Below, in pieces: positions 4,277 to 14,716 of a stretch of 64,000 nt of DNA; the stretch's first letter is position 1; the number at the start of each line of letters is the position of its first letter. The translations under genes and the position numbers were made by a program. A model generated the notes under the pieces. That model had not been told where the DNA came from, ran no database searches, and was given only the letters and a program-made list of their open reading frames with translations. The stretch covers positions 6,696,001-6,760,000 of the forward strand of contig NZ_CP107869.1 of assembly GCF_036013645.1 (NCBI RefSeq), read 5' to 3'. The DNA is from Streptomyces sp. NBC_00490. Its GTDB lineage: Bacteria > Actinomycetota > Actinomycetes > Streptomycetales > Streptomycetaceae.

Positions 4277-4308
4277 CCAATCCGCCGCCTCAGCTGGATC
4301 GGATTACG
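4277..4308 (+). promoter_or_regulatory. Putative SigK-dependent promoter of sigK
   Basis: CCAATCC at 4277-4283 is followed after exactly 17 bases by GGATTACG at 4301-4308. The same arrangement precedes the molybdopterin gene (5849) and the FAD oxidoreductase operon (minus strand, 14716). It resembles the mycobacterial SigK consensus as remembered (CCATCC, spacer, CCGAAT). Expected transcript start is near 4312, which suggests sigK autoregulation and excludes the far-upstream start codons of the open frame. Confidence 0.7.
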
Positions 4309-4339
4309 TCCGGAGATGTCCCGACCGCGGAGGCCCTCG

Positions 4340-4924
4340 GTGAAAGAAGCTGTACATATCGGCAGAAATCCTTCTGTCGAGCCGAACCTTGAGGAGCTCG
4401 TGGGCTGTGTGGCCCTGGGCGACGACAAGGCGTTCGCCTCGGTGTACGACGCCGTCGCGGGCTCGGTCCTGGGCGTCGTCCGTGCCGTACTGCGCGACCA
4501 GGCGCAGTCGGAGGAGGTGGCCCAGGAGGTCCTGGTGGAGGTGTGGCGCACCGCGCCCCGCTACCGCCGTGACCGGGGTACGGCCATCAACTGGATCCTC
4601 ACGCTGGCGCACCGCAGGGCGGTGGACCGGGTGCGCTCGGTGGAGGCCGCGGCCGTCCGGGACCACAAGGCGGCCCTGCTGGAGCGCACGCCCGAGTACG
4701 ACGAGGTGACCGAGCAGGTCGAGGCGCGGCTGGAGCGGGAACAGGTACGGCGCTGTCTGCGCACGCTGACCGAGATCCAGCACCAGGCCGTCACGCTGGC
4801 CTACTACCGCGGACTGACCTACCGGCAGGTGGCAGAGGCGCTGTCGCTGCCGCTGGGCACGGTCAAGACCCGGTTGCGGGACGGACTCATCCGGCTGCGC
4901 GACTGTCTGGGAGTGACGGCATGA
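4340..4924 (+). CDS. sigK: ECF RNA polymerase sigma factor SigK
   Basis: This is a group 4 (ECF) sigma factor of about 194 residues. Region 2 (AFASVYDAV to the HRRAVDRVRS segment) contacts the -10 element. Region 4 (QAVTLAYYRGLTYRQVAEAL to KTRLRDGLIRLRD) is the helix-turn-helix for the -35. Start set at GTG 4340 because GGAGG lies six bases upstream and the promoter predicts a transcript start near 4312; ATG 4316 is the alternative. It overlaps rskA by four bases (ATGA). Best match is the SigK (ECF19) group, supported by the RskA partner and the fasciclin and cyclopropane-synthase genes nearby. Confidence 0.88.
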   Translation: MKEAVHIGRNPSVEPNLEELVGCVALGDDKAFASVYDAVAGSVLGVVRAVLRDQAQSEEVAQEVLVEVWRTAPRYRRDRGTAINWILTLAHRRAVDRVRSVEAAAVRDHKAALLERTPEYDEVTEQVEARLEREQVRRCLRTLTEIQHQAVTLAYYRGLTYRQVAEALSLPLGTVKTRLRDGLIRLRDCLGVTA

Positions 4925-5670
4925 CGGCCACCGACCTGCACCGGCTGACGGGTGCCTACGCACTGCACGCCCTGCCCGACGGGGAGCGCGAGGCGTTCGA
5001 GCGGCACCTCGCGGGCTGCGAGGCGTGCGCGCAGGAGGCGGCCGAACTGGCCGCCACCGCGGCCCGCCTGGGGCTCGCGGCCTCGGTGACGCCTTCCGCG
5101 GCGCTGCGGGAGCAGGTGCTGCGGCGGATCACCACCGTCCGGCAGGAGGGGCCCGACGGCGCGGCCCCGTCCCGCTGGGGCCGTACGCGGCCGCGGGCCC
5201 GGCTGCTGTCGCGGTGGACGCTGGCCGCCTGTCTGGCGGCCACCGCGCTCGGCGGTACGACGGTGTGGCAGCACCAGCGGGCCGAGGAGGCGCTGGGCCG
5301 GGCGCACCGCGCCGAACAGGGGACGGACGAGATCGCCGCCGTACTGACCGCGCCGGACGCCCGGACACGGGTCGCGGATCTGGCCGGGGGCGCCACCGGC
5401 ACGGTCGTGGTCTCCCGTGACCTGGACAGGGCCGTCTTCCTCGTCTCCGGGATGGCGAGTCCCCCGGGCGGCAAGGTCTACCAGCTGTGGTTCGACGACG
5501 CCGGAGCGATGCGGTCGGCCGGCCTGATGGACCCCGCCCGCGCCGACCAGGCCGTCCTGATGCGGGGTCCCGTGGACTCGGCGTCGGGCATGGGCATCAC
5601 CGTCGAACCCAGCGGCGGCTCGAAGCGGCCCACCTCGGCTCCGCTCGCTTTGATGACCTTCCCGGCCTGA
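4921..5670 (+). CDS. rskA: Membrane anti-sigma-K factor RskA
   Basis: This 249-residue single-pass membrane protein has a cytoplasmic N-terminal anti-sigma domain carrying an HxxxCxxC motif (HLAGCEAC). A transmembrane helix lies around residues 100-118 (WTLAACLAATALGGTTVW). The extracytoplasmic C-terminal RskA domain contains VYQLWFDDAGAM. It should hold SigK at the membrane until proteolysis or a redox signal releases it. Translationally coupled to sigK by ATGA and followed by a strong terminator, so sigK-rskA is a two-gene transcript. Confidence 0.9.
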   Translation: MTATDLHRLTGAYALHALPDGEREAFERHLAGCEACAQEAAELAATAARLGLAASVTPSAALREQVLRRITTVRQEGPDGAAPSRWGRTRPRARLLSRWTLAACLAATALGGTTVWQHQRAEEALGRAHRAEQGTDEIAAVLTAPDARTRVADLAGGATGTVVVSRDLDRAVFLVSGMASPPGGKVYQLWFDDAGAMRSAGLMDPARADQAVLMRGPVDSASGMGITVEPSGGSKRPTSAPLALMTFPA

Positions 5671-5713
5671 AGGCCTGACCGCTCCCTTTCCGGCGCAAGC
5701 CGGACCTTTACAG

Positions 5714-5764
5714 TCCCGGGCGCCCCTGATTCCGCTTTCTGGAAAAGGGGCGCCGGGATTTTTT
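5714..5764 (+). terminator. Rho-independent terminator after rskA
   Basis: TCCCGGGCGCCCCT pairs with AGGGGCGCCGGGA (one bulged G) and six T residues follow. It separates sigK-rskA from the molybdopterin gene, which has its own promoter. Confidence 0.88.
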
Positions 5765-5805
5765 CATGTCCCGGCGAACGCCGCTTATCCGTAGCGGCAG
5801 CCGAT

Positions 5806-5857
5806 GTGGATTGGTCCGGAAAAAATAATTCATCCGATCGAGGGCCGACCAATCCAC
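5806..5857. repeat. 11-bp inverted repeat containing the promoter -35
   Basis: GTGGATTGGTC (5806-5816) is the exact reverse complement of GACCAATCCAC (5847-5857), with 30 bases between. The right arm contains the CCAATCC -35 of the SigK-type promoter. The left arm gives the same -35 on the other strand, with GGATAAG 18 bases beyond it at 5784-5790. It may be a second, divergent promoter or a regulator site. Confidence 0.6.
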
Positions 5858-5880
5858 CGGCCGCTCGGGACCGGATTCCC
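5849..5880 (+). promoter_or_regulatory. Putative SigK-dependent promoter of the molybdopterin oxidoreductase gene
   Basis: CCAATCC (5849-5855), 17 bases, then GGATTCCC (5873-5880) repeats the layout of the sigK promoter. A transcript start about 11 bases after the first G of GGATT would fall at about 5884, the GTG start codon, so the mRNA may be leaderless. Confidence 0.68.
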
Positions 5881-5883
5881 CAC

Positions 5884-7512
5884 GTGACCGATGACGAGAA
5901 GGAATTCCGGAACACCCGCGGGTGGACACGGCCTGCGTTGGCCGCGCTCGGTGGCGCGCTGGCAGGTTTCGCCGCGCTCGCCACGGCGGAGCTGGTGTCG
6001 GCGGCGGTTCGGCCGCAGTCCGGTCCCGTCGTCGTGGTCGGCGGCGCGGCGATCGACCGGACGCCCGCCGCGGTGAAGGACTGGGCGATCCGGAATTTCG
6101 GCACCGACGACAAACTCTTTCTCCAGCTCGGTGTTCTTTCCGTGCTCGCGGTTTTCGCCATCGCTCTGGGAATGGCGGCGCTGCGATTTCGCCGTACCGC
6201 CGCCGCCGGTGTTCTGCTGTTCGGTGCCGTCGGAGCGGCCGCGGCCATCAGCCGGCCCGATTCGAACGGTTTCTCCGATGCCCTGCCGTCCATCGCGGGC
6301 GCGATCGTCGGAGCCGTACTGCTCCTTTTCCTGGCCGGCCGTCTCGTCCTCCGGGGCCCGGTGCCGGACGCGACAGCCAACCCGGAGACCGGTCCGGAGA
6401 GCGGTCCGCCCGTGGGGCGGGGATGGGATCGCCGTGGCTTCGTCATCGCCGCTACGACTGCCGCCGCGGCCTCCGCCGGGGCCGGCGTACTGGGGCGGGC
6501 CCTCAACGGTTCGAGCGGCCGGGGCGCTGTCGCCTCGCGCGACGAGGTCGTGCTGCCCGCTCCGGTCTCCGCGGCCCCGGCCGTCCCCAGGGGGGCCCGG
6601 TTGCGGATCCCCGGCATCAGCTCCTTCACCACACCGAACGGCGACTTCTACCGCGTCGACACCGCGCTCGTGGTCCCCAAGGTGAACGCCAGGACCTGGC
6701 GGCTGCGCATCCAGGGCACGGGCGTTCGCCGCCCGCTGTCCCTCTCGTACGACGATCTGCTGCGGCGTGAGCTCATCGAGCGCGACATCACCCTGACCTG
6801 TGTCTCCAACGAGGTCGGCGGCCCGTACGTCGGCAACGCCCGCTGGATCGGCGTACGCCTGTCCGAGCTGCTCTCCGAGTGCGGTGTACGGCCGCCCTCC
6901 CGGGGTGGTCCGGCCGACCAGCTGGTGGCCCGCTCGGTCGACGGCATGACGATCGGCAGTCCGGTCGAGGACGTCATGGATGGCCGGGACGCTCTTCTCG
7001 CCCTGGGCATGAACGGTGAACCGCTGCCCTTCGCGCACGGGTTCCCCGTCCGGATGGTGGTGCCCGGCCTGTACGGCTACGTCTCGGCCTGCAAGTGGAT
7101 CGAGGACATCGAACTCACCACGTTCGACGCCTACGACCCCTACTGGGTCAAGCGTGACTGGGCCCGCAGGGCACCGGTCAAGACGCAGTCGCGGATCGAC
7201 ACCCCGAAGCCGTTCGCCCGTCCCCAGGCCGGCCCGGTCATGGTCGCCGGGGTCGCCTGGGCCCAGCACCGGGGCATCGACAAGGTCGAGGTCCGCGTCG
7301 ACGACGGCCCCTGGCGGGAGGCCCGGCTCGCCGCCGAGGACACCCGCGACACCTGGCGTCAGTGGTCCCTGGCCTGGCAGGCCCCGAAGGGCGGCCACAC
7401 CCTCACCGTCCGCGCCACCGACCGCACCGGCCGGGTGCAGACCGAGAAACGCGCACGGACGATCCCCGACGGCGCCAGCGGATGGCACTCCGTCGTGGTG
7501 ACCGTCGACTGA
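5884..7512 (+). CDS. Membrane-anchored molybdopterin-dependent oxidoreductase (sulfite oxidase fold)
   Basis: About 542 residues. The first 180 hold roughly four membrane helices. An RRGF motif and another hydrophobic stretch follow near residues 180-205, a Tat-like signal placed internally. The molybdopterin domain then carries the expected cysteine in LTCVSNEVGG. The last 110 residues match the sulfite-oxidase dimerisation domain (VAGVAWAQHRG, VEVRVDDGPW). It probably acts outside the membrane on an oxidisable substrate, perhaps a methionine sulfoxide or sulfite type. GTG 5884 was chosen because the promoter -10 ends only a few bases upstream and no ribosome site is visible. Confidence 0.85.
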   Translation: MTDDEKEFRNTRGWTRPALAALGGALAGFAALATAELVSAAVRPQSGPVVVVGGAAIDRTPAAVKDWAIRNFGTDDKLFLQLGVLSVLAVFAIALGMAALRFRRTAAAGVLLFGAVGAAAAISRPDSNGFSDALPSIAGAIVGAVLLLFLAGRLVLRGPVPDATANPETGPESGPPVGRGWDRRGFVIAATTAAAASAGAGVLGRALNGSSGRGAVASRDEVVLPAPVSAAPAVPRGARLRIPGISSFTTPNGDFYRVDTALVVPKVNARTWRLRIQGTGVRRPLSLSYDDLLRRELIERDITLTCVSNEVGGPYVGNARWIGVRLSELLSECGVRPPSRGGPADQLVARSVDGMTIGSPVEDVMDGRDALLALGMNGEPLPFAHGFPVRMVVPGLYGYVSACKWIEDIELTTFDAYDPYWVKRDWARRAPVKTQSRIDTPKPFARPQAGPVMVAGVAWAQHRGIDKVEVRVDDGPWREARLAAEDTRDTWRQWSLAWQAPKGGHTLTVRATDRTGRVQTEKRARTIPDGASGWHSVVVTVD

Positions 7513-7586
7513 CGCCCCCTCAAGCCACTTCTTCCCTTCCCAAGTGAACGCGGCCCCGGCCGCGTCGATCCCACAGGAGAAACACT

Positions 7587-8243
7587 ATGAACACCCGTTT
7601 CCGCCGTACCGCCGTGACCCTCGCCGCGGCCGCCGTGCTGCCCCTGGCGCTGAGCGCCTGCTCGGACGACAGCAGCGACTCGGCGTCGTCGGACTCCTCC
7701 ACCAAGGCGTCCGCCCCCGCGTCCGCCTCCGACGACGGCATGGCCGGTTCCGGCACCCCGGCCGGCGACCAGCCCTTCGGCCCCGCCTGCGCGACGGTCC
7801 CCGAGAGCGGTGCCGGCTCCTTCGAGGGCATGGCCCAGGACCCGGTGGCCACCGCCGCCTCCAACAACCCGGCCCTGTCCACGCTGGTCACGGCCGTGAA
7901 GAAGGCCGGTCTGGTCGACACCCTCAACAACGCCGAGAACATCACCGTGTTCGCGCCGACCAACGACGCCTTCGCGAAGATCCCGAAGGCCACCCTGGAC
8001 AAGGTCCTGAACGACAAGGCCCAGCTGACCAAGATCCTCACGTACCACGTCGTCGGACAGCGGCTGGCCCCGGCGGACCTGGAGAAGGGGTCCTTCGACA
8101 CGCTGGAGAAGTCGAAGCTGACCACCTCCGGCTCGGGCGAGTCCTATACAGTCAACGACTCCTCGAAGGTCGTCTGCGGAGACGTCAAGACCGCCAACGC
8201 CAACGTGTACATCGTCGACACCGTGCTGATGCCCACCAGCTGA
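7587..8243 (+). CDS. Fasciclin-domain lipoprotein (MPT70/MPT83 type)
   Basis: This 218-residue secreted lipoprotein has a signal peptide ending in the lipobox LSAC at about residue 25, then a Ser/Asp/Ala-rich linker, then one fasciclin (FAS1) domain with NITVFAPTNDAFAKI and LTYHVVGQRL. It lies 74 bases after the molybdopterin gene, has no SigK-type promoter of its own, and is probably cotranscribed. In M. tuberculosis the fasciclin proteins MPT70 and MPT83 are the main SigK targets, so this gene supports naming the sigma factor SigK. RBS AGGAG. A strong terminator follows. Confidence 0.9.
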   Translation: MNTRFRRTAVTLAAAAVLPLALSACSDDSSDSASSDSSTKASAPASASDDGMAGSGTPAGDQPFGPACATVPESGAGSFEGMAQDPVATAASNNPALSTLVTAVKKAGLVDTLNNAENITVFAPTNDAFAKIPKATLDKVLNDKAQLTKILTYHVVGQRLAPADLEKGSFDTLEKSKLTTSGSGESYTVNDSSKVVCGDVKTANANVYIVDTVLMPTS

Positions 8244-8253
8244 CCGCACACGG

Positions 8254-8295
8254 CCCCGGGGGACGTCACCCATGTGACGTCCCCCGGGGTCTTTG
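8254..8295 (+). terminator. Strong hairpin terminator after the fasciclin gene
   Basis: A perfect 16-bp stem (8254-8269 with 8274-8289) with a four-base loop CCAT is followed by TCTTTG. It closes the molybdopterin-fasciclin transcript. Confidence 0.88.
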
Positions 8296-8367
8296 TTCGC
8301 ACAGCCGAGATGGAATCCGCCCGGCGCGGGGTATGCGGGAGTGGATCCGGGTGAGAGGCGCAGGGGC

Positions 8368-9273
8368 ATGAGCAGACCGTTCACGTACGCCGCCGTGGGC
8401 CGCCATGTGCCCCGGCTGCCCGCCGCCTGGTGGCCGGCGCTGCGGCGCACGCCGGTGTCCCTGTGGAACGACGACATCACGGACTACGCGGCGGCGCTGA
8501 CGTACTACGCGATCCTGGCCGTGCTCCCCGGGATGCTGGTCACCGTCCTCGCGTTCGGGCTGATCAGCCCGGACACGGCCGAGGAGTTCGTCACCCACGT
8601 CACCGCCTATGCCCCCGCCGAGTCCGGTGCCGACCTGCACGCCGTGCTGTCCCGTGCGCTGAGCCCCGACGGGACGGCATGGCCGCTGATCGTGACCGGT
8701 ACGGTCAGCGCGATGTGGTCGGCCTCCAGCTATCTCGCCGTCTTCCGCCGTGCCCTGCACCGTATGCACCGGGTGGAGGACCGGCGCTCGACCTGGCGCA
8801 AGGCGCACCGGATCGTGCTGACCGCCCTCGTGCTGCTGGGACTGCTCCTCGCCGGCTCGCTCGTCCTGCTGCTGACCGGCCCGCTCGCCGCGGCGGCGGG
8901 CCGGATCCTCGGCGTGGACACCACCGCGACCTGGGCCTGGAGCGTGCTGCGCTGGCCCTTCCTGCTGTGCCTGGTCGCCCTCCTGGTCGTGGTCGTCTTC
9001 CACACCGGTCCGACCGCGGCCCGTCCGCGTGCCCGCAGCCTGCCCGGCGGGGTGCTGGCCGCCGCGCTGTGGCTGACGGTCTCCGCGGGCTTCGCCTGGT
9101 ACGCCTCGAGCCTGAGCGCGTACAGCAGGCTCTACGGCTCGCTCGCGGGCGTCGTCGTCTTCCTCGTCTGGCTGTGGCTGTCCAACCTCGCCCTGCTGAC
9201 CGGGGCGCAGTTCGCCGCGGAACTCGCGGGGCCGCGCGGTCAGAGCACGGGGAAGTTGTCGGCCGTGCCGTAG
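8368..9273 (+). CDS. YihY/BrkB-family inner membrane protein
   Basis: About 301 residues with five to six membrane helices. DYAAALTYYAILAVLPGML near the N-terminus and GVVVFLVWLWLSNLALLTGA near the C-terminus are characteristic of the YihY/BrkB (formerly RNase BN) family. Its molecular role is unresolved. ATG 8368, preceded by AGGGG, is preferred to the upstream in-frame GTG. The 3' end overlaps the convergent hydrolase gene by 34 bases. No SigK-type promoter was found in front of it. Confidence 0.85.
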   Translation: MSRPFTYAAVGRHVPRLPAAWWPALRRTPVSLWNDDITDYAAALTYYAILAVLPGMLVTVLAFGLISPDTAEEFVTHVTAYAPAESGADLHAVLSRALSPDGTAWPLIVTGTVSAMWSASSYLAVFRRALHRMHRVEDRRSTWRKAHRIVLTALVLLGLLLAGSLVLLLTGPLAAAAGRILGVDTTATWAWSVLRWPFLLCLVALLVVVVFHTGPTAARPRARSLPGGVLAAALWLTVSAGFAWYASSLSAYSRLYGSLAGVVVFLVWLWLSNLALLTGAQFAAELAGPRGQSTGKLSAVP

Positions 9274-9962
9274 GACTCCGCGGGCAGCGGGTCGGGCACG
9301 GAGCCGGGGTCCAGGAGGTGGGCCACGGCTGCCGCGGCGGTGCGGTGCCAGAGGGTGTGGCGGCGCAGCATCGCGTGGTCACCGCCGCCGACCAGGGCCA
9401 TGCCCGCCCGTGCCGCCGTGCCCCGCGCCCGGCGTACGTAGTCGGCCGCTTCCACCGGCGAGGTGACGCGGTCCCGGTCGCCGTGCAGGACCACCAGGCG
9501 ACGGCCCGCCGTCTGCTCCACCGGCTCGCCCGGCGGACACCAGGGCGCCAGCGCGAGGACGGCGCTCACCTGCGGGTGGCCGGCGGCGCGCAGTGCCGCC
9601 CGGGCGCCCATCGAGTGGCCGACCAGCACCGTGGGCACCGGGCCTGCCAGCTCCGCGAGGCGGTCCAGCGCCCGGTGGGTGTCGGCCACGGGGTCGGCGT
9701 CGACGTCGTTCCAGCCCCGGAGGCGATAGCGCACCCGGGCCAGCAGGACGTCCCGGCCGGGCAGTTCCGCCGCCAGCGACCACAGGAACGGGCGCATCCG
9801 CAGGGCGGCGAGGTGCCAGGGCCGCGACGGGCGGCGGCCGACCGCCCGCCCTCCGTGCAGGACCAGCACGGCCGCCCGGGGCCGCGTCGGAAGGCGCAGC
9901 GGCAGGAGTGCGGCGCCGGGCGTGCGCGGCGGCCCGGTCTCGTCACGGGGCACTGCGGGCAT
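9240..9962 (-). CDS. Alpha/beta hydrolase, last gene of the SigK-linked operon
   Basis: About 240 residues with an alpha/beta-hydrolase fold. The nucleophile elbow is GHSMG, an acid follows in VLHGDRDRV, and the catalytic His is probably in GGGDHAML. No signal peptide. Start taken at ATG 9962 (MPAVPRDETG) with GAGG just upstream; the ATG eight codons earlier is possible. It follows the DUF1295 gene by 26 bases in the same direction and so is probably the sixth gene of the operon beginning at the FAD oxidoreductase. Substrate unknown; an ester or lipid substrate would suit its neighbours. Confidence 0.8.
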   Translation of the reverse strand: MPAVPRDETGPPRTPGAALLPLRLPTRPRAAVLVLHGGRAVGRRPSRPWHLAALRMRPFLWSLAAELPGRDVLLARVRYRLRGWNDVDADPVADTHRALDRLAELAGPVPTVLVGHSMGARAALRAAGHPQVSAVLALAPWCPPGEPVEQTAGRRLVVLHGDRDRVTSPVEAADYVRRARGTAARAGMALVGGGDHAMLRRHTLWHRTAAAAVAHLLDPGSVPDPLPAESYGTADNFPVL

Positions 9963-9988
9963 TCCTCGTCTCCCTCTCCACGGCACGG

Positions 9989-10792
9989 TCAGCGTCGGCG
10001 CGGTGGGCGGGGAAAGAAGCCGCTGGTCCGCGCCACGTACTCGGCGTAGCCGGGACGGCCCGCCATGTGCCGCTCCAGCAGCCGCTTCCCGCTCCCGCGC
10101 ACCAGCAGCAGGCTCATCACCAGCGGGGACACGACGGACACGGCAGCCGACTGCGGCGCGTCACAGGCGAGCAGGAACAGGCCCCACCACACACAGAAGT
10201 CACCGAAGTAGTTGGGGTGCCGGGTCCACCCCCACAGCCCTCGGTCCATGATGCGGCCCCGGTGGGCGGGATCGGCCTTGAACCGGGCGAGCTGGGCGTC
10301 GCCGACCGCCTCGAAGCAGAGGCCCACCGCCCACACCGCGACCCCGGCCCAGGCGAGGAACGTCGGCGGGCCGGACACGTACTGCGCCGCCTGGACGGGC
10401 AGGGACACCAGCCAGACCAGGGCGCCCTGGAGCAGGTACACCATGCGCAGGGCGTACAGGTTCCGACTGCCGGGCGCCTTGGCCAGCATCGCCTCGTAGC
10501 GCGGGTCCTCGCCGTGACCCCGGCCGCGGCGGGCGATGTGCACGGCGAGCCGCAGCCCCCACACCGCGGTCAGGGCGGTCACCAGCACCCGCCGCGCCGG
10601 GTCCCCGTGCCCGGCGGAGGCGACGAGGGTCACGGCGGCGACGGCGGTGAACCCGACACCCCAGGCGATGTCCACGATCCGGTGCAGCCCCGCGCGCACC
10701 GCGAGCGCGAAGGTGACGAGCATGACCGCGAGCGCCGCGCCGGCGGCCCAGGCGAGATTGGCCGCGAACGCGCTCCAGGCGAACCCGCTCAC
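9989..10792 (-). CDS. DUF1295 membrane protein (steroid 5-alpha-reductase-like fold)
   Basis: A 267-residue polytopic membrane protein whose C-terminal region holds RHPNYFGDFCVWWG, the DUF1295/isoprenylcysteine-methyltransferase-like signature. The homologous gene Rv0446c lies directly beside sigK in M. tuberculosis (recalled). Start is GTG 10792, overlapping the stop of the preceding gene as GTGA; homology begins at about this point, so the much longer open frame is not used. It probably reduces or modifies a membrane lipid together with the FAD protein and methyltransferase of the operon; the reaction is not established. Confidence 0.85.
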   Translation of the reverse strand: MSGFAWSAFAANLAWAAGAALAVMLVTFALAVRAGLHRIVDIAWGVGFTAVAAVTLVASAGHGDPARRVLVTALTAVWGLRLAVHIARRGRGHGEDPRYEAMLAKAPGSRNLYALRMVYLLQGALVWLVSLPVQAAQYVSGPPTFLAWAGVAVWAVGLCFEAVGDAQLARFKADPAHRGRIMDRGLWGWTRHPNYFGDFCVWWGLFLLACDAPQSAAVSVVSPLVMSLLLVRGSGKRLLERHMAGRPGYAEYVARTSGFFPRPPRRR

Positions 10793-11301
10793 AGCCGGTC
10801 CAGCCCCTCGTACCAGGCCCGCGTGGTCGACGGCATCCCGCGGTAGTGGTGGCTGACGGCGGCCCGGTCGCGGGCCCGGCTGTGCAGGCCGCCGCGCAGC
10901 CGGGCCTGGGAGGCCGGGGCGGACGGACGCGGGCCCACGGCACCGAGCCGTACGGCCGTGGCGAGGGCACGGCCCCGGTCGGCGGGCGTGAGCCGGGGCG
11001 GGCGCAGGCCGCGCTCCCGCTGCGCGGCCCACACCGTCCGCAGCCCCTGGGCCAGGTCGCCCTCGATGTCGACCTCACCGGTGACGTAGGCCTGCGCCAG
11101 GCCCGGTTCGCCGGGCTGCCACAGCAGTCGGCGCAGTGCGCGCCGGGAGCGCACGACGACCACGGGGGCGCCGGCCGGGCCCGTCTCGCTACCGTCCCAG
11201 GCCCGCAGCCGGACCGGCAGCGGGCCGCCGAGGAGGTCCTCGGCGAGGGCGGCGAGCCGGTGGGCGGCACCGGGCCGGGCGGAGATCTCGGTGGCGGTCA
11301 T
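10789..11301 (-). CDS. Truncated cyclopropane-fatty-acid-synthase-family protein (N-terminal region only)
   Basis: This 170-residue protein resembles the first third of a cyclopropane fatty-acyl-phospholipid synthase: it has the GEPGLAQAYVTGEVDIEGDL segment and then AVSHHY, where full-length enzymes continue with the SAM-binding methyltransferase domain. It ends about 18 residues later at a stop that overlaps the next gene, so the methyltransferase domain is missing. Both ends are in tight four-base overlaps (ATGA at the start, GTGA at the end), which argues that it is still translated. It may be a deletion remnant or a non-catalytic partner of the full-length enzyme upstream. Confidence 0.7.
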   Translation of the reverse strand: MTATEISARPGAAHRLAALAEDLLGGPLPVRLRAWDGSETGPAGAPVVVVRSRRALRRLLWQPGEPGLAQAYVTGEVDIEGDLAQGLRTVWAAQRERGLRPPRLTPADRGRALATAVRLGAVGPRPSAPASQARLRGGLHSRARDRAAVSHHYRGMPSTTRAWYEGLDRL

Positions 11302-12608
11302 CGGAGGGGGTTCTCCTTGGTGAACAGGTACTGCTGGACGTCCAGGTAGCCGGAGCGGAACCCGGCCTCGGAATAGGCCAGGTAGAAGGTCCACAGGCGG
11401 CGGAAGGTCTCGTCGAAGCCGAGCTCCTCGGCCTCCCCGGCGCGTTGCGTGAACCGCTCCCGCCACAGGCGCAGCGTCTCGGCGTAGTGGGCGCCGAAGC
11501 CGTCACGCCGGGTCAGACGCAGCCGGGTGTGGTCGCGGGCGGTCTCCTCGACGGCCCGGGTGGACGGGATCTGCCCGCCGGGGAAGACGTACTTGTGGAT
11601 CCAGGTGAAGGTGGAGCGGGTGGCGAGCATCCGCTCGTGCGGCATGGTGATGGCCTGGAGCGCCGCCCGGCCGCCCGGCGCCAGCCGCTCGTCCAGGGCA
11701 CGGAAGTACACCGGCCAGAACTCCGCGCCCACCGCCTCGATCATCTCCACGCTGACGACGGCGTTGTACTCCCCGCGGGCCTCGCGGTAGTCGCACAGTT
11801 CGACGCGGACCCGCTCCTCGAGTCCCGCCGCGCGGATCCGTTCCCGGGCCAGGGTCTGCTGTTCCCGGGACAGGGTGAGCGTGGTGACACGGGCACCGCG
11901 CGCGACGGCCCGCAGGGCCAGTTCGCCCCAGCCGGTGCCGATCTCCAGCAGCCGGGTGCCCGCGCCGACGTCGGCGAGGTCGAGCAGCCGGTCGATCTTG
12001 CGGTGCTGGGCGGCGGCGAGCAGGTCCCGGCTCGCCGGGAAGCCCCGGAAGAGAGCCGAGGAGTAGGTGAGGGTGTCGTCGAGGAAGAGGGCGAACAGGT
12101 CGTTGGACAGGTCGTAGTGGCGGCTGATGTTGGCCCGGGAACCGTCGGGGGTGTTGCGCTGCTCGTCGGGCCGGCGCAGCGCCCACAGGCCGCGCAGCCC
12201 CTGCAGCGGTGCCGGGACCAGATCGGCGGCGTGCGCGGCGAACGCGGTGAGGACGCCGACCAGGTCGGGGGCGTCCCACTCGCCCGCCATGTAGGACTCC
12301 CCGAACCCGACCAGTCCGTGGGTGCCCACGCGCGCGTGGAAGCTCTCCGGATCCCGCACCTCCAGCAGTGGTCCGCCCCGGCCGAAGGGCTCGGAGCCGG
12401 CGAACCGTGTCCACAGGGGCAGCCCGCGCAACGCACGCCGAACGAGGGCCCGCGTCACGGCGGTCCGGGGCCACGACGCCTTCGGTACGGCGGCGATGTC
12501 CGGCCAGTGGGCGGCGTCCACGGGGGCGCTGCGGCCGTCGCCGGTGCTGGTGGGACCGGTGTGCCCGTGGGGGGCGGTACGGGGCTCTGCCGGCCTCGCT
12601 GTCGTCAT
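11298..12608 (-). CDS. Cyclopropane-fatty-acid-synthase-like SAM methyltransferase (UfaA1 type)
   Basis: About 436 residues. An N-terminal lipid-binding region is followed by RANISRHYDLSNDLFALFL and the SAM-binding motif LLEIGTGWGELAL near residue 225; the C-terminal part holds SVEMIEAVG and WIHKYVFPGG. Such enzymes methylate or cyclopropanate double bonds of membrane phospholipid acyl chains. The M. tuberculosis relative ufaA1 (Rv0447c) sits in the SigK locus. Start ATG 12608 overlaps the DUF1365 stop (ATGA). Product chemistry (cyclopropane, 10-methyl or furan precursor) cannot be decided from sequence. Confidence 0.88.
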   Translation of the reverse strand: MTTARPAEPRTAPHGHTGPTSTGDGRSAPVDAAHWPDIAAVPKASWPRTAVTRALVRRALRGLPLWTRFAGSEPFGRGGPLLEVRDPESFHARVGTHGLVGFGESYMAGEWDAPDLVGVLTAFAAHAADLVPAPLQGLRGLWALRRPDEQRNTPDGSRANISRHYDLSNDLFALFLDDTLTYSSALFRGFPASRDLLAAAQHRKIDRLLDLADVGAGTRLLEIGTGWGELALRAVARGARVTTLTLSREQQTLARERIRAAGLEERVRVELCDYREARGEYNAVVSVEMIEAVGAEFWPVYFRALDERLAPGGRAALQAITMPHERMLATRSTFTWIHKYVFPGGQIPSTRAVEETARDHTRLRLTRRDGFGAHYAETLRLWRERFTQRAGEAEELGFDETFRRLWTFYLAYSEAGFRSGYLDVQQYLFTKENPLR

Positions 12609-13345
12609 GTCGCTTTCTCCGAGGTGCGGTGTTCCGGGCGGGGCTGGACGGGCAGTCCGCGCAGGTACAGGCGGATGCCGTGGGCGCGGATCGCGGCCGA
12701 CACGGCGAGGGTGGACCAGGGGTGCCGCACCGCCAGCCGCAGCAGGGACGCCGTGCTCACCGGGCGCCGGGCGCCGCGCACGGTCGCGGTGAAGGCCCGG
12801 CCGCCCTCGCGGTCCAGGCGCACGGTCAGGTCGAGCCGCGCTCCGGGCGGCGGAAGGCGCATGCGGTAGCGGCCGTCGACGGGGAAGAACGGCGAGACAT
12901 AGAGCTTCTTGTCGGTCCGGAGCTCCTTCCCGGCGCCGGCCGCGTCCGGATGCAGCAGGTAGCCGTGGCGTCCGCCGTAGGTGTTGTGCACCTCCGCGAC
13001 CACACAGCGCAGTTCCCCGGCCGGGCCGTGGCACCAGTACAGGGTGAGCGGGTTGAAGACGTACCCGAGCACGCGCGCGTGGGTGAGCATCAGCACCCGC
13101 CCGCGGTCCAGGTCCACGCCGTGCGCGGCCAGGAAGGCGTCCAGAGCGGCCCGGATCGTGGGCCGGTCACCGGTGAAGTGGTCGCGCGGGTCGAACCGGG
13201 CGAACGGCCGCAGCGGAAGCGGGAGTCGGGGCGGACGGTCGGGGTCGACGAGCCACATGTACGTGCGGTGACGCAGCGCGTACCGCCGGGGCGTGGTCCG
13301 CACATGGGCGATCGTGCAGGGATACAGGGCCGGTACGGTGCTCAC
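12605..13345 (-). CDS. DUF1365 family protein
   Basis: A 246-residue protein of the DUF1365 family. Recognisable segments are LGYVFNPLTLYWCH, VVAEVHNTYGGRHGYLL and KKLYVSPFFPVDGRYRM. Members nearly always lie beside an FAD-dependent amine-oxidase-like gene and a cyclopropane-synthase-like methyltransferase, as here, and are thought to act in the same fatty-acid modification; no reaction is assigned. GTG 13345 overlaps the FAD gene stop (GTGA). Confidence 0.87.
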   Translation of the reverse strand: MSTVPALYPCTIAHVRTTPRRYALRHRTYMWLVDPDRPPRLPLPLRPFARFDPRDHFTGDRPTIRAALDAFLAAHGVDLDRGRVLMLTHARVLGYVFNPLTLYWCHGPAGELRCVVAEVHNTYGGRHGYLLHPDAAGAGKELRTDKKLYVSPFFPVDGRYRMRLPPPGARLDLTVRLDREGGRAFTATVRGARRPVSTASLLRLAVRHPWSTLAVSAAIRAHGIRLYLRGLPVQPRPEHRTSEKAT

Positions 13346-14646
13346 CAGCGCACTCCGAGCGCGGCGGCGGCCTCGACCCCGGAGCGGCAGCCGTCCTCGT
13401 GGAACCCCCAGCCGTGATAGGCGCCCGCGAACGCGCAGACCGGGCTGTTCAGCTCCGGCAGGCGCTGCTGAGCGGCCACCGACTCCGGTGTGTAGACGGG
13501 GTGTTCGTAGACCATGCGGGCCAGCACCCGGCCGGGGTCCACGCGGTCCTCGCCGCCCAGCGTGACCACGAACCTCTCGGCGGCGTCGAGGCGTTGCAGC
13601 CGGTTCATGTCGTAGCTGACCCGCACCCGGTCGGCGCCCGCCGTGCACGACGGCATCAGGTAGTTCCAGGAGGCGCGGGCACCGCGCGCACGCGGCAGCA
13701 GCCCGGTGTCGGTGTGCAGGAGCGTGGAGTTGCGGGAGTACCGGAACGCGCCCAGCACCTCCCGCTCACGCGTGGTCGCGTCGGCCAGCAGCCGCAGCGC
13801 CGAGTCCGGGTGGGCCGCGATCACCACGGCGTCGTACGACTCGGTCGTGCCGTCCTCGGTGGTGATGTCCACGCCGTCGGCGTGCCGTCGTACGGCCCGG
13901 ACGGGAGTGGCGGTGCGGACCTCGTCGACGTGCTTGGCGACCCGGTCGACGTACTCGCGCGAGCCGCCGGTCACCGTGCGCCACACCGGTGAACCGCCCA
14001 CCGAGAGCATCCCGTGGTGGGCCAGGAAACGGAACAGATAGGCGGCGGGGTAGAGCTGCGCGGTCGCGGCGTCGCAGGACCACACGGCGGACACCACCGG
14101 CGTCATGAAGTGGGCGCGGAAGTAGCCGGAGAAGCCCTCCCGGTCCAGGAACTCGCCGAGGGTGAGCGGGCCCCCGGGGCTTTCGGCGAGCAGCCGGCGG
14201 GCCGCCCGGTAGAACGCCGGAACCTCCGCCAGCAGCCGCAGATAGCGGCCGCGCAGGAGGCTGCGAGGTCGCGCGAGCAGGCCGGCCGGGCCACGGGCAC
14301 CGGCGTATTCCAGTCCGCACCCCTCGCACCGCACCGACATGCTCATCTCCGACTCCTGCGTGGCGACGCCGAGTTCGTCGAACAGCCGCAGCAGATACGG
14401 GTAGGTCCGCCGGTTGTGCACGATGAAACCGGAGTCGACGCGGTGCACCCGCCCGTCGTGCGGCGAGGTCAGCTCATGGGTGTGTGCGTGTCCGCCGAGC
14501 CGGTCGTCGGCCTCGTAGAGGGTGACGTGACGGTCCGGGCCCAGGACGTACGCGGCGGTCAGCCCCGCGACCCCGGCGCCCACGACGGCAATGCGCCGCC
14601 CCGCGTGCTCCGGCGCTCGCGACGCCCCCCTCGACGTGCGTTCCAT
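13342..14646 (-). CDS. FAD-dependent (amine-oxidase-like) oxidoreductase, first gene of the operon
   Basis: 434 residues. The N-terminal Rossmann motif VVGAGVAGL is followed by YEADDRLGGHAHTH, typical of the NAD(P)-binding Rossmann-like/flavin amine oxidase family next to DUF1365. It probably oxidises or reduces an acyl chain handled by the downstream methyltransferase. First gene of a six-gene minus-strand operon joined by four-base overlaps. ATG 14646 is preceded by AGGAGGAAG. A SigK-type promoter lies 39-70 bases upstream. The M. tuberculosis equivalent (Rv0449c) heads the same set. Confidence 0.88.
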   Translation of the reverse strand: MERTSRGASRAPEHAGRRIAVVGAGVAGLTAAYVLGPDRHVTLYEADDRLGGHAHTHELTSPHDGRVHRVDSGFIVHNRRTYPYLLRLFDELGVATQESEMSMSVRCEGCGLEYAGARGPAGLLARPRSLLRGRYLRLLAEVPAFYRAARRLLAESPGGPLTLGEFLDREGFSGYFRAHFMTPVVSAVWSCDAATAQLYPAAYLFRFLAHHGMLSVGGSPVWRTVTGGSREYVDRVAKHVDEVRTATPVRAVRRHADGVDITTEDGTTESYDAVVIAAHPDSALRLLADATTREREVLGAFRYSRNSTLLHTDTGLLPRARGARASWNYLMPSCTAGADRVRVSYDMNRLQRLDAAERFVVTLGGEDRVDPGRVLARMVYEHPVYTPESVAAQQRLPELNSPVCAFAGAYHGWGFHEDGCRSGVEAAAALGVRW

Positions 14647-14684
14647 CGCCCTTCCTCCTGTCGGCCGCGATCAGTGCTGTCCCG

Positions 14685-14716
14685 CGTAATCCGGATCAGG
14701 TCGGGCGTCGGATTGG
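14685..14716 (-). promoter_or_regulatory. Putative SigK-dependent promoter of the fatty-acid-modification operon
   Basis: On the minus strand CCAATCC (14716-14710), 17 bases, then GGATTACG (14692-14685) matches the sigK promoter at every base of both elements. Expected transcript start is near 14681, leaving a leader of about 35 bases with a good ribosome site. Confidence 0.72.

Follow-up and report, generated by a model that had tools for sequence, protein, structure and literature searches.

Whether a promoter string repeated around a sigK gene of Streptomyces sp. NBC_00490 marks a local regulon of the sigma factor SigK, and whether it is read there in the same way as in other actinobacteria, are the questions raised by this locus. 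In the window (the whole analysed stretch of 64,000 nucleotides, positions 6,696,001 to 6,760,000 of contig NZ_CP107869.1), an earlier sequence-only reading had placed CCAATCC-N17-GGATT in front of three transcription units and had proposed a local SigK regulon with recognition conserved between genera. According to our comparative analysis, the window sites are in all likelihood promoters read by SigK, forming a local regulon with autoregulation, which would comprise sigK-rskA, a pair of genes for a molybdopterin oxidoreductase and a fasciclin protein, and an operon opening with a flavin adenine dinucleotide (FAD)-dependent oxidoreductase, along with an orphan fourth promoter; we put this reading as a whole at a probability of about 0.88. 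In the proposed mechanism, RskA would release SigK, and SigK-bound RNA polymerase would start at sigK-rskA itself (autoregulation), transcribe the molybdopterin oxidoreductase-fasciclin pair into a probably leaderless mRNA and also transcribe an operon probably concerned with membrane lipids (FAD oxidoreductase, DUF1365, methyltransferase, DUF1295, hydrolase), the fourth, divergent promoter being an orphan in this genome. The genes for the sigma factor, of the extracytoplasmic function (ECF) type, and the anti-sigma factor, together with the four promoters, are placed as follows.

4277..4307, plus strand: SigK-type promoter of sigK-rskA (-35 CCAATCC 4277-4283, N16, -10 CGGATTAC 4300-4307; predicted start 4312, a G)
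4340..4924, plus strand: sigK (paralogue A), ECF sigma factor of 194 residues (NCBIfam NF007228; Pfam sigma70 r2/r4; Cys 139/189)
4921..5670, plus strand: rskA, anti-sigma-K factor (PF10099 RskA_C, E 1.6e-30; RskA_N, zf-HC2)
5786..5814, minus strand: fourth, divergent SigK-type site, orphan (-35 CCAATCC 5814-5808, N16, -10 CGGATA 5791-5786)
5849..5879, plus strand: SigK-type promoter of the molybdopterin oxidoreductase-fasciclin pair (-35 5849-5855, N16, -10 CGGATTCC 5872-5879)
14686..14716, minus strand: SigK-type promoter of the FAD operon (-35 14716-14710, N16, -10 CGGATTAC 14693-14686; predicted start 14681, a G)

The search for CCAATCC-N{16,18}-GGATT revealed three exact matches in the window, at 4277 (+), 5849 (+) and 14716 (-), each with N17 and precisely where they had been reported, against an expectation of 0.01 (100 shuffles, none of which held three matches). 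The scan of the whole genome (10,798,493 bases), which had been proposed as a check, returned these same three matches only, and the reversed-pattern control returned none, in agreement with the earlier claim that chance is unlikely. With one mismatch allowed, nine matches occurred in the genome (control, 1), among them 5814..5786 on the minus strand of the window, CCAATCC-N16-CGGATA, a fourth site that had been overlooked. Two-mismatch forms are uninformative, since eight were present in the window against 2.61 expected. The pattern CC[A/C]ATCC-N16-CG[A/G]AT matched 11 times in the genome (control, 1): four CCAATCC-CGGAT sites, every one inside the window, four CGAAT sites, two of them at the locus of a second SigK paralogue (SigK-B), and three CCCATCC-CGGAT sites outside the window that are probably due to chance. 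The predicted start base is a G at matching distance in all four window promoters.

The sigma factor scored 275.1 bits against the NCBIfam model NF007228 (SigK; cut-off 226), and the product of the gene directly 3' of it scored 106.6 bits against RskA_C (PF10099; threshold 29.4). Named relatives among the best 120 of the window SigK were nearly all Streptomyces proteins. A cysteine pair 50 residues apart is present in the window SigK (C139/C189) and in paralogue B (C148/C198), with the same spacing as the pair 133/183 of M. tuberculosis SigK (PMC7509140). The window RskA contains an H-x3-C-x2-C stretch, read by eye, as well as HRLTGAYALHAL and PDGEREAFERHL, which agree, counted by eye, at 9 of 12 positions each with HTLAGAYALDAL and LDDERAAFERHL, the helix motifs of the ECF19 anti-sigma group AS19-1 (PMC7406223).

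The register of the motif was derived from 80 loci fetched around close SigK relatives (the named loci, 79 of them titled Streptomyces), in which gaps of 10 to 24 were scanned. CCAATCC-N16-CGGAT occurred at 152 sites in 76 of the 80 loci, whereas no other gap accounted for more than 4 sites; because this gap spectrum peaks at 16, N16-CGGAT is preferred and the N17-GGATT register is abandoned, the same site being better read one base earlier. Upstream of sigK itself, and with up to 2 mismatches tolerated in the -35, a -10 CGGA at gap 16 or 17 was seen in 76 of these 80 loci. The class sample contributed 67 further SigK loci, characterized by CC[A/C]ATCC-N16-CGAA (33 plus 26 sites), with no other gap exceeding 4 sites for either form of the -35 and only 2 CGGAT sites, part of these loci being without a clear site; behind CCAATCC at gap 16, the named loci contained 152 CGGAT versus 2 CGAA. 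The -35 box and the gap are therefore conserved, and the third -10 base has changed from A to G in the lineage of the window. The window thus shares the -35 CC[A/C]ATCC and the gap of 16 with other actinobacterial SigK loci but not their -10 CGAA, as CGGA stands at all four window sites; recognition conserved between genera, as proposed earlier, is borne out at the -35 and in the spacing but fails at the third -10 base.

The distribution of the motif across the genus follows the clade of the window SigK. Among 111 sampled genomes (handles with G denote genomes and those with L loci), 85 had a SigK match at an expectation value (E) of 1e-48; 123 matches were typed and 121 entered the tree, L303 (G122) and L310 (G120) being left out for their short SigK frames. 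The clade of the window SigK comprised 20 rows from 15 genomes with a support of 100/93; by the -10 element before sigK, 14 rows were G-type, 4 A-type, one had T (CGT in G195, L214, counted apart) and one, the second SigK copy of G174 (L233), had no recognised site. CCAATCC-N16-CGGATT was found at 43 sites in the 111 genomes (reversed control, 0), 40 of which fell in clade-bearing genomes (13 of these 15) and 3 in the other 96; this comparison was made by hand and by genome, not by distance to sigK, and several of the 40 sites lie away from the sigK locus. The named and genus samples overlap, since L171/G174, L181/G073 and L116/G130 are apparently the same genomes by their coordinates. With the SigK model score and the clade-bound motif, the proposal of a local SigK regulon is supported, though corrected in its register and in the number of its sites. 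As side observations, G174, which is without SigK-B, carries seven CCAATCC-N16-CGGATT sites on six contigs, perhaps reflecting a larger regulon, and G101 has three SigK-A-type copies (L043, L044, L045) with a different share of the target genes beside each.

The fourth site (5814..5786, minus strand) stands back to back with the molybdopterin promoter and faces the 3' end of rskA; within 340 bases of it in the window, no reading frame of 60 residues or longer starts in the leftward direction. The segment between the two -35 boxes (5815-5848) combines an A-rich tract with a block resembling CATCCGATCG, both of which recur in many relatives. In a survey of 58 CGGAT(T/C)CC-type sites from 87 sequences, five of which were sigK promoters (L127, L128, L134, L139, L143), 32 sites had an exact opposite partner CC[A/C]ATCC-N16-CGGA, the -35 boxes being 33 to 35 bases apart, six had a one-mismatch partner at 33 to 35 bases, three a partner at another distance, and 17 no opposite partner at up to one mismatch. 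Behind the 41 partners there was a second ECF sigma gene at 14, the FAD operon at four, a fasciclin gene at one and none of the tested genes at 22; L042 and L181 are one locus, counted twice among the four FAD-operon sites, and L160 is a larger-distance partner. Because an ECF sigma gene or the FAD operon stands behind the same element in relatives, the fourth site is best read as a promoter left behind after gene loss. No match to the ECF protein found behind the element in relatives was obtained in the genome of NBC_00490 at E 1e-25, and the control for this search recovered the protein in 4 of 6 relatives, 3 of them known carriers. The 14 loci with an ECF gene directly behind a divergent SigK-type promoter (L115, L116, L117, L119, L121, L125, L130, L132, L135, L140, L148, L165, L168, L169) suggest a sigma cascade.

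The change in the -10 element coincides in part with SigK-B, which is 63% identical to the window SigK and is accompanied by its own RskA.

G000:C1:2752495-2753220 (in L040): SigK-B-RskA pair facing away from a DUF4331-TPR operon; two CGAAT-type promoters stand back to back

SigK-B itself is preceded by a promoter with CGAAT, likewise at a gap of 16, and with an almost identical -35. As for further candidate targets of SigK-B, two CGAAT sites of the genome lie outside the SigK loci: the one at 2776408 (+) has no co-directed gene starting nearby, and the one at 8868339 (-) precedes an anti-sigma-like gene. SigK-B was assigned from the tree in the genus sample and, in the named genomes, by a hit at E 1e-70. 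Within the clade, sigK is preceded by G in 10 and by T in one of the 11 genomes that carry SigK-B, and by A in all 4 that lack it (Fisher p 0.0007, relatedness ignored); among the 30 A-type genomes outside the clade, none had SigK-B. The count in named genomes covered 74 genomes, with L141, L151, L190, L192 and L193 left out as genomes already represented and the genome of L146 not included; L186 and L189 appear in it as A-type with SigK-B, their -35 having 2 mismatches, and are probably no sites.

Comparison of 76 G-type named SigK sequences, 30 A-type relatives and 40 SigK-B sequences revealed four differing positions in region 2, which, judging by sigma structures, would lie near the surface that reads the -10 element. 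Position 81 is T in 72/76 G-type sequences, S in 26/30 A-type and S in 36/40 SigK-B; position 83 is I or V in 66/76, M in 28/30 and L in 37/40, respectively; position 84 is N in 76/76, N in 17/30 and S in 35/40; and position 101 is V in 72/76, A in 23/30 and A in 38/40. Since the columns were chosen for differing, these residues are leads only, and no sigma residue accounts for the -10 switch without exception.

Several alternatives have to be weighed against these data. A chance origin of three similar strings lying close together appears next to impossible: the boxes are short and two-mismatch forms frequent in the window, but the low expectation for exact matches, the empty genome control and the conservation of the sites in other species speak against it. 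The sites might instead be read by another sigma factor or regulator, such as SigK-B, with SigK-A using a different motif, a notion to which the similarity of SigK-B and of its promoter gap and -35 lends some ground; it is nevertheless very improbable, as 29 sampled genomes with SigK-B but without a clade member held a single site, in one genome (G128), and SigK-B in its own genome is preceded by CGAAT. The following points weigh against a SigK regulon as proposed here: membership in the SigK family by name is no proof of bound sites, the putative lipid product and inducing signal are taken from published relatives, three of the 80 named loci (L186, L189, L193) have only a 2-mismatch CGAA string before sigK, the -35 is degraded in several others (e.g., L123, L157, L174), and the clade genomes G195 and G205 contain no exact CGGATT site. 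As to the fourth site, it could be a working promoter for an antisense or regulatory RNA across the 3' end of rskA, seeing that the -35, the spacing and CGGAT have stayed exact even though no gene was detected to its left, and that its predicted start base is G. We regard this as unlikely, because gene loss explains the orphan in view of the ECF gene (14 sites) or FAD operon (4 sites) behind the element in relatives; where no tested gene follows, L133, L134 and L149 have the element with a mismatch and L172 yielded no such element, and the lack of a leftward open frame counts against it as well.

The meaning of the -10 change is more evenly disputed. That it insulates the SigK-A regulon from SigK-B is a fair hypothesis, which the distribution of the paralogues suggests, and only suggests, because 9 of 71 named G-type genomes have no SigK-B hit at E 1e-70. 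In its joint form, which we hold tentatively, the shift from CGAAT to CGGAT at SigK-A targets together with region 2 changes (T81, I/V83, V101, and N84 versus S in SigK-B) would represent natural orthogonality that arose after the paralogues met in one genome, accompanied in some relatives by a cascade from SigK-A to an ECF factor that was lost here with its promoter left. The competing explanation, whose chances we consider to be about even, holds that the A-to-G change is lineage drift with matching sigma changes, unrelated to SigK-B, and that the association stems from shared ancestry. Drift would accommodate the position of the G-type rows in a single clade of the tree, the nine named genomes without SigK-B and G120, which is G-type and without a SigK-B match at E 1e-48. 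The A-type clade exceptions (L209, L211, L237, L248) point the same way, two of them being sisters and L248 a long-branch member, and CGGATT sites persist in three of the four A-type-promoter genomes (seven in G174, two in G214, one in G127). For this last reason the four exceptions were rejected as full specificity reversals, and only the own promoter of sigK is therefore known to differ there. Drift alone fits less well with the 30 of 30 A-type genomes outside the clade that are without SigK-B, with the G or T in all 11 clade genomes that have it, and with a change common to the targets (152 CGGAT versus 2 CGAA in the 80 named loci).

The first predicted target unit outside sigK-rskA comprises two genes.

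5884..7512, plus strand: molybdopterin oxidoreductase, predicted leaderless (PF00174, E 1.4e-41 on the longer frame; GTG 5884 is the predicted transcript start)
7587..8243, plus strand: fasciclin-domain protein (PF02469, E 1.9e-35)

Sulfite-dehydrogenase models match the oxidoreductase below their cut-offs. Among 83 sequences, 41 promoters, the window included, had a molybdopterin oxidoreductase match nearby; in these, the distance from CGGATTCC to the first start codon is 4 bases in 35 cases, 5 in four and 2 in two; in both 2-base cases the frame ends immediately and a GTG lies two bases downstream. The N-termini of the proteins are often alike (TDDEK, TENEK, RDEEK). The mRNA is thus probably leaderless, beginning with GTG 5884, and the transcript starts proposed earlier (4312, 5884, 14681) are plausible, since 5884 is the first base of a GTG that keeps a fixed distance in relatives.

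The FAD operon, transcribed leftward, contains the following frames.

13342..14646, minus strand: FAD-dependent amine-oxidase-type oxidoreductase, first operon gene (PF01593, E 9e-27)
12605..13648, minus strand: DUF1365 protein (open frame, true start inside; PF07103, E 6.8e-69)
11298..12608, minus strand: CMAS/cyclopropane-synthase-type methyltransferase (PF02353, E 3.3e-83)
10789..11466, minus strand: probable remnant of a second cyclopropane-synthase-like gene, N-terminal part only (weak CfaB match, no Pfam match)
9989..11032, minus strand: DUF1295 protein (open frame, true start inside; PF06966, E 3.1e-70)
9240..9986, minus strand: alpha/beta hydrolase, last operon gene (Pfam Hydrolase_4)

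A second CFAS-like match occupies the place of 10789-11466 in many relatives, and this frame is probably a second cyclopropane-synthase-like gene reduced to its N-terminal part. The operon is probably a membrane-lipid operon resembling the furan-fatty-acid pathway, whose enzymes may have counterparts, by type and domain, in the DUF1365 protein, the CMAS-type methyltransferase and the FAD enzyme of the window. One of the furan-fatty-acid enzymes, UfaO of Rhodobacter, which has been examined in ChrR mutants, contains DUF1365 (PMC7380195); in M. kansasii, the putative SigK targets mpk83 and mpk70 increase under light (PMC9861118); RskA was lowered by ultraviolet radiation in a soil actinobacterium (PMC8965627); and M. 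tuberculosis SigK is described as being under redox control via its cysteines (PMC8103513). Because of these reports, the regulon may serve as an envelope response to oxidative or light stress, a role also suggested by the link of SigK to a furan-fatty-acid-like operon. No passage on the FAD-operon genes was found in PMC6852236.

SigK/RskA regulons and the conservation of SigK promoters across genera are already known, SigK sites being described as highly conserved in Actinobacteria (Veyrier 2008, as cited in PMC7509140), and the stimulus of SigK-RskA is still called obscure in mycobacteria (PMC9861118). Our analysis adds the lineage-wide -10 switch and its pattern with SigK-B, a divergent promoter that in relatives leads to a second ECF gene, and a target whose mRNA is probably leaderless. 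No report of these or of this Streptomyces regulon was recognised in searches of open-access literature, which is weak evidence of novelty as the searches were partly aimed elsewhere. The locus offers a compact, testable SigK regulon outside mycobacteria and, if the -10 switch separates the paralogues, a natural series of genomes with and without the sister sigma factor for studying insulation.

MPT70 and MPT83 are fasciclin proteins, and the M. tuberculosis gene order Rv0449c-Rv0445c presumably constitutes the FAD/DUF1365/methyltransferase/DUF1295 unit by sigK; a similar order by sigK was found in locus L113. The M. tuberculosis SigK/RskA regulon (sigK operon with Rv0449c; mpt83, dipZ, mpt70) resembles the window in SigK and RskA, the cysteine pair, the fasciclin targets and, presumably, that unit by sigK. 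Unlike it, the window has its fasciclin gene preceded by a molybdopterin enzyme; the third -10 base of the window is G. Furthermore, M. tuberculosis SigK is autoregulated via the Rv0449c promoter (PMC7509140), whereas sigK-rskA of the window has a SigK-type promoter of its own, and M. tuberculosis RskA is reportedly not reliant on a zinc motif (PMC7406223), in contrast to the H-x3-C-x2-C stretch noted above. The mpt83-sigK-rskA cassette of other genera, also of Yersinia, likewise combines a fasciclin-type gene behind a SigK site with SigK and RskA (PMC7509140). The window differs from this cassette in its three or four promoters, in the probable lipid operon and in a -10 element altered by a single base.

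In Rhodobacter sphaeroides, the partner sigma factor of ChrR is RpoE, and UfaD is a flavin enzyme. The ChrR-controlled genes ufaM, ufaD and ufaO place a methyltransferase (UfaM), a desaturase (UfaD) and a DUF1365 protein (UfaO) under an ECF/anti-sigma pair (PMC7380195), much as SigK-RskA is proposed to control the FAD operon of the window; the two systems differ in that the R. sphaeroides pair belongs to another ECF and anti-sigma group and that ufaM lies apart from ufaD-ufaO there (PMC7380195).

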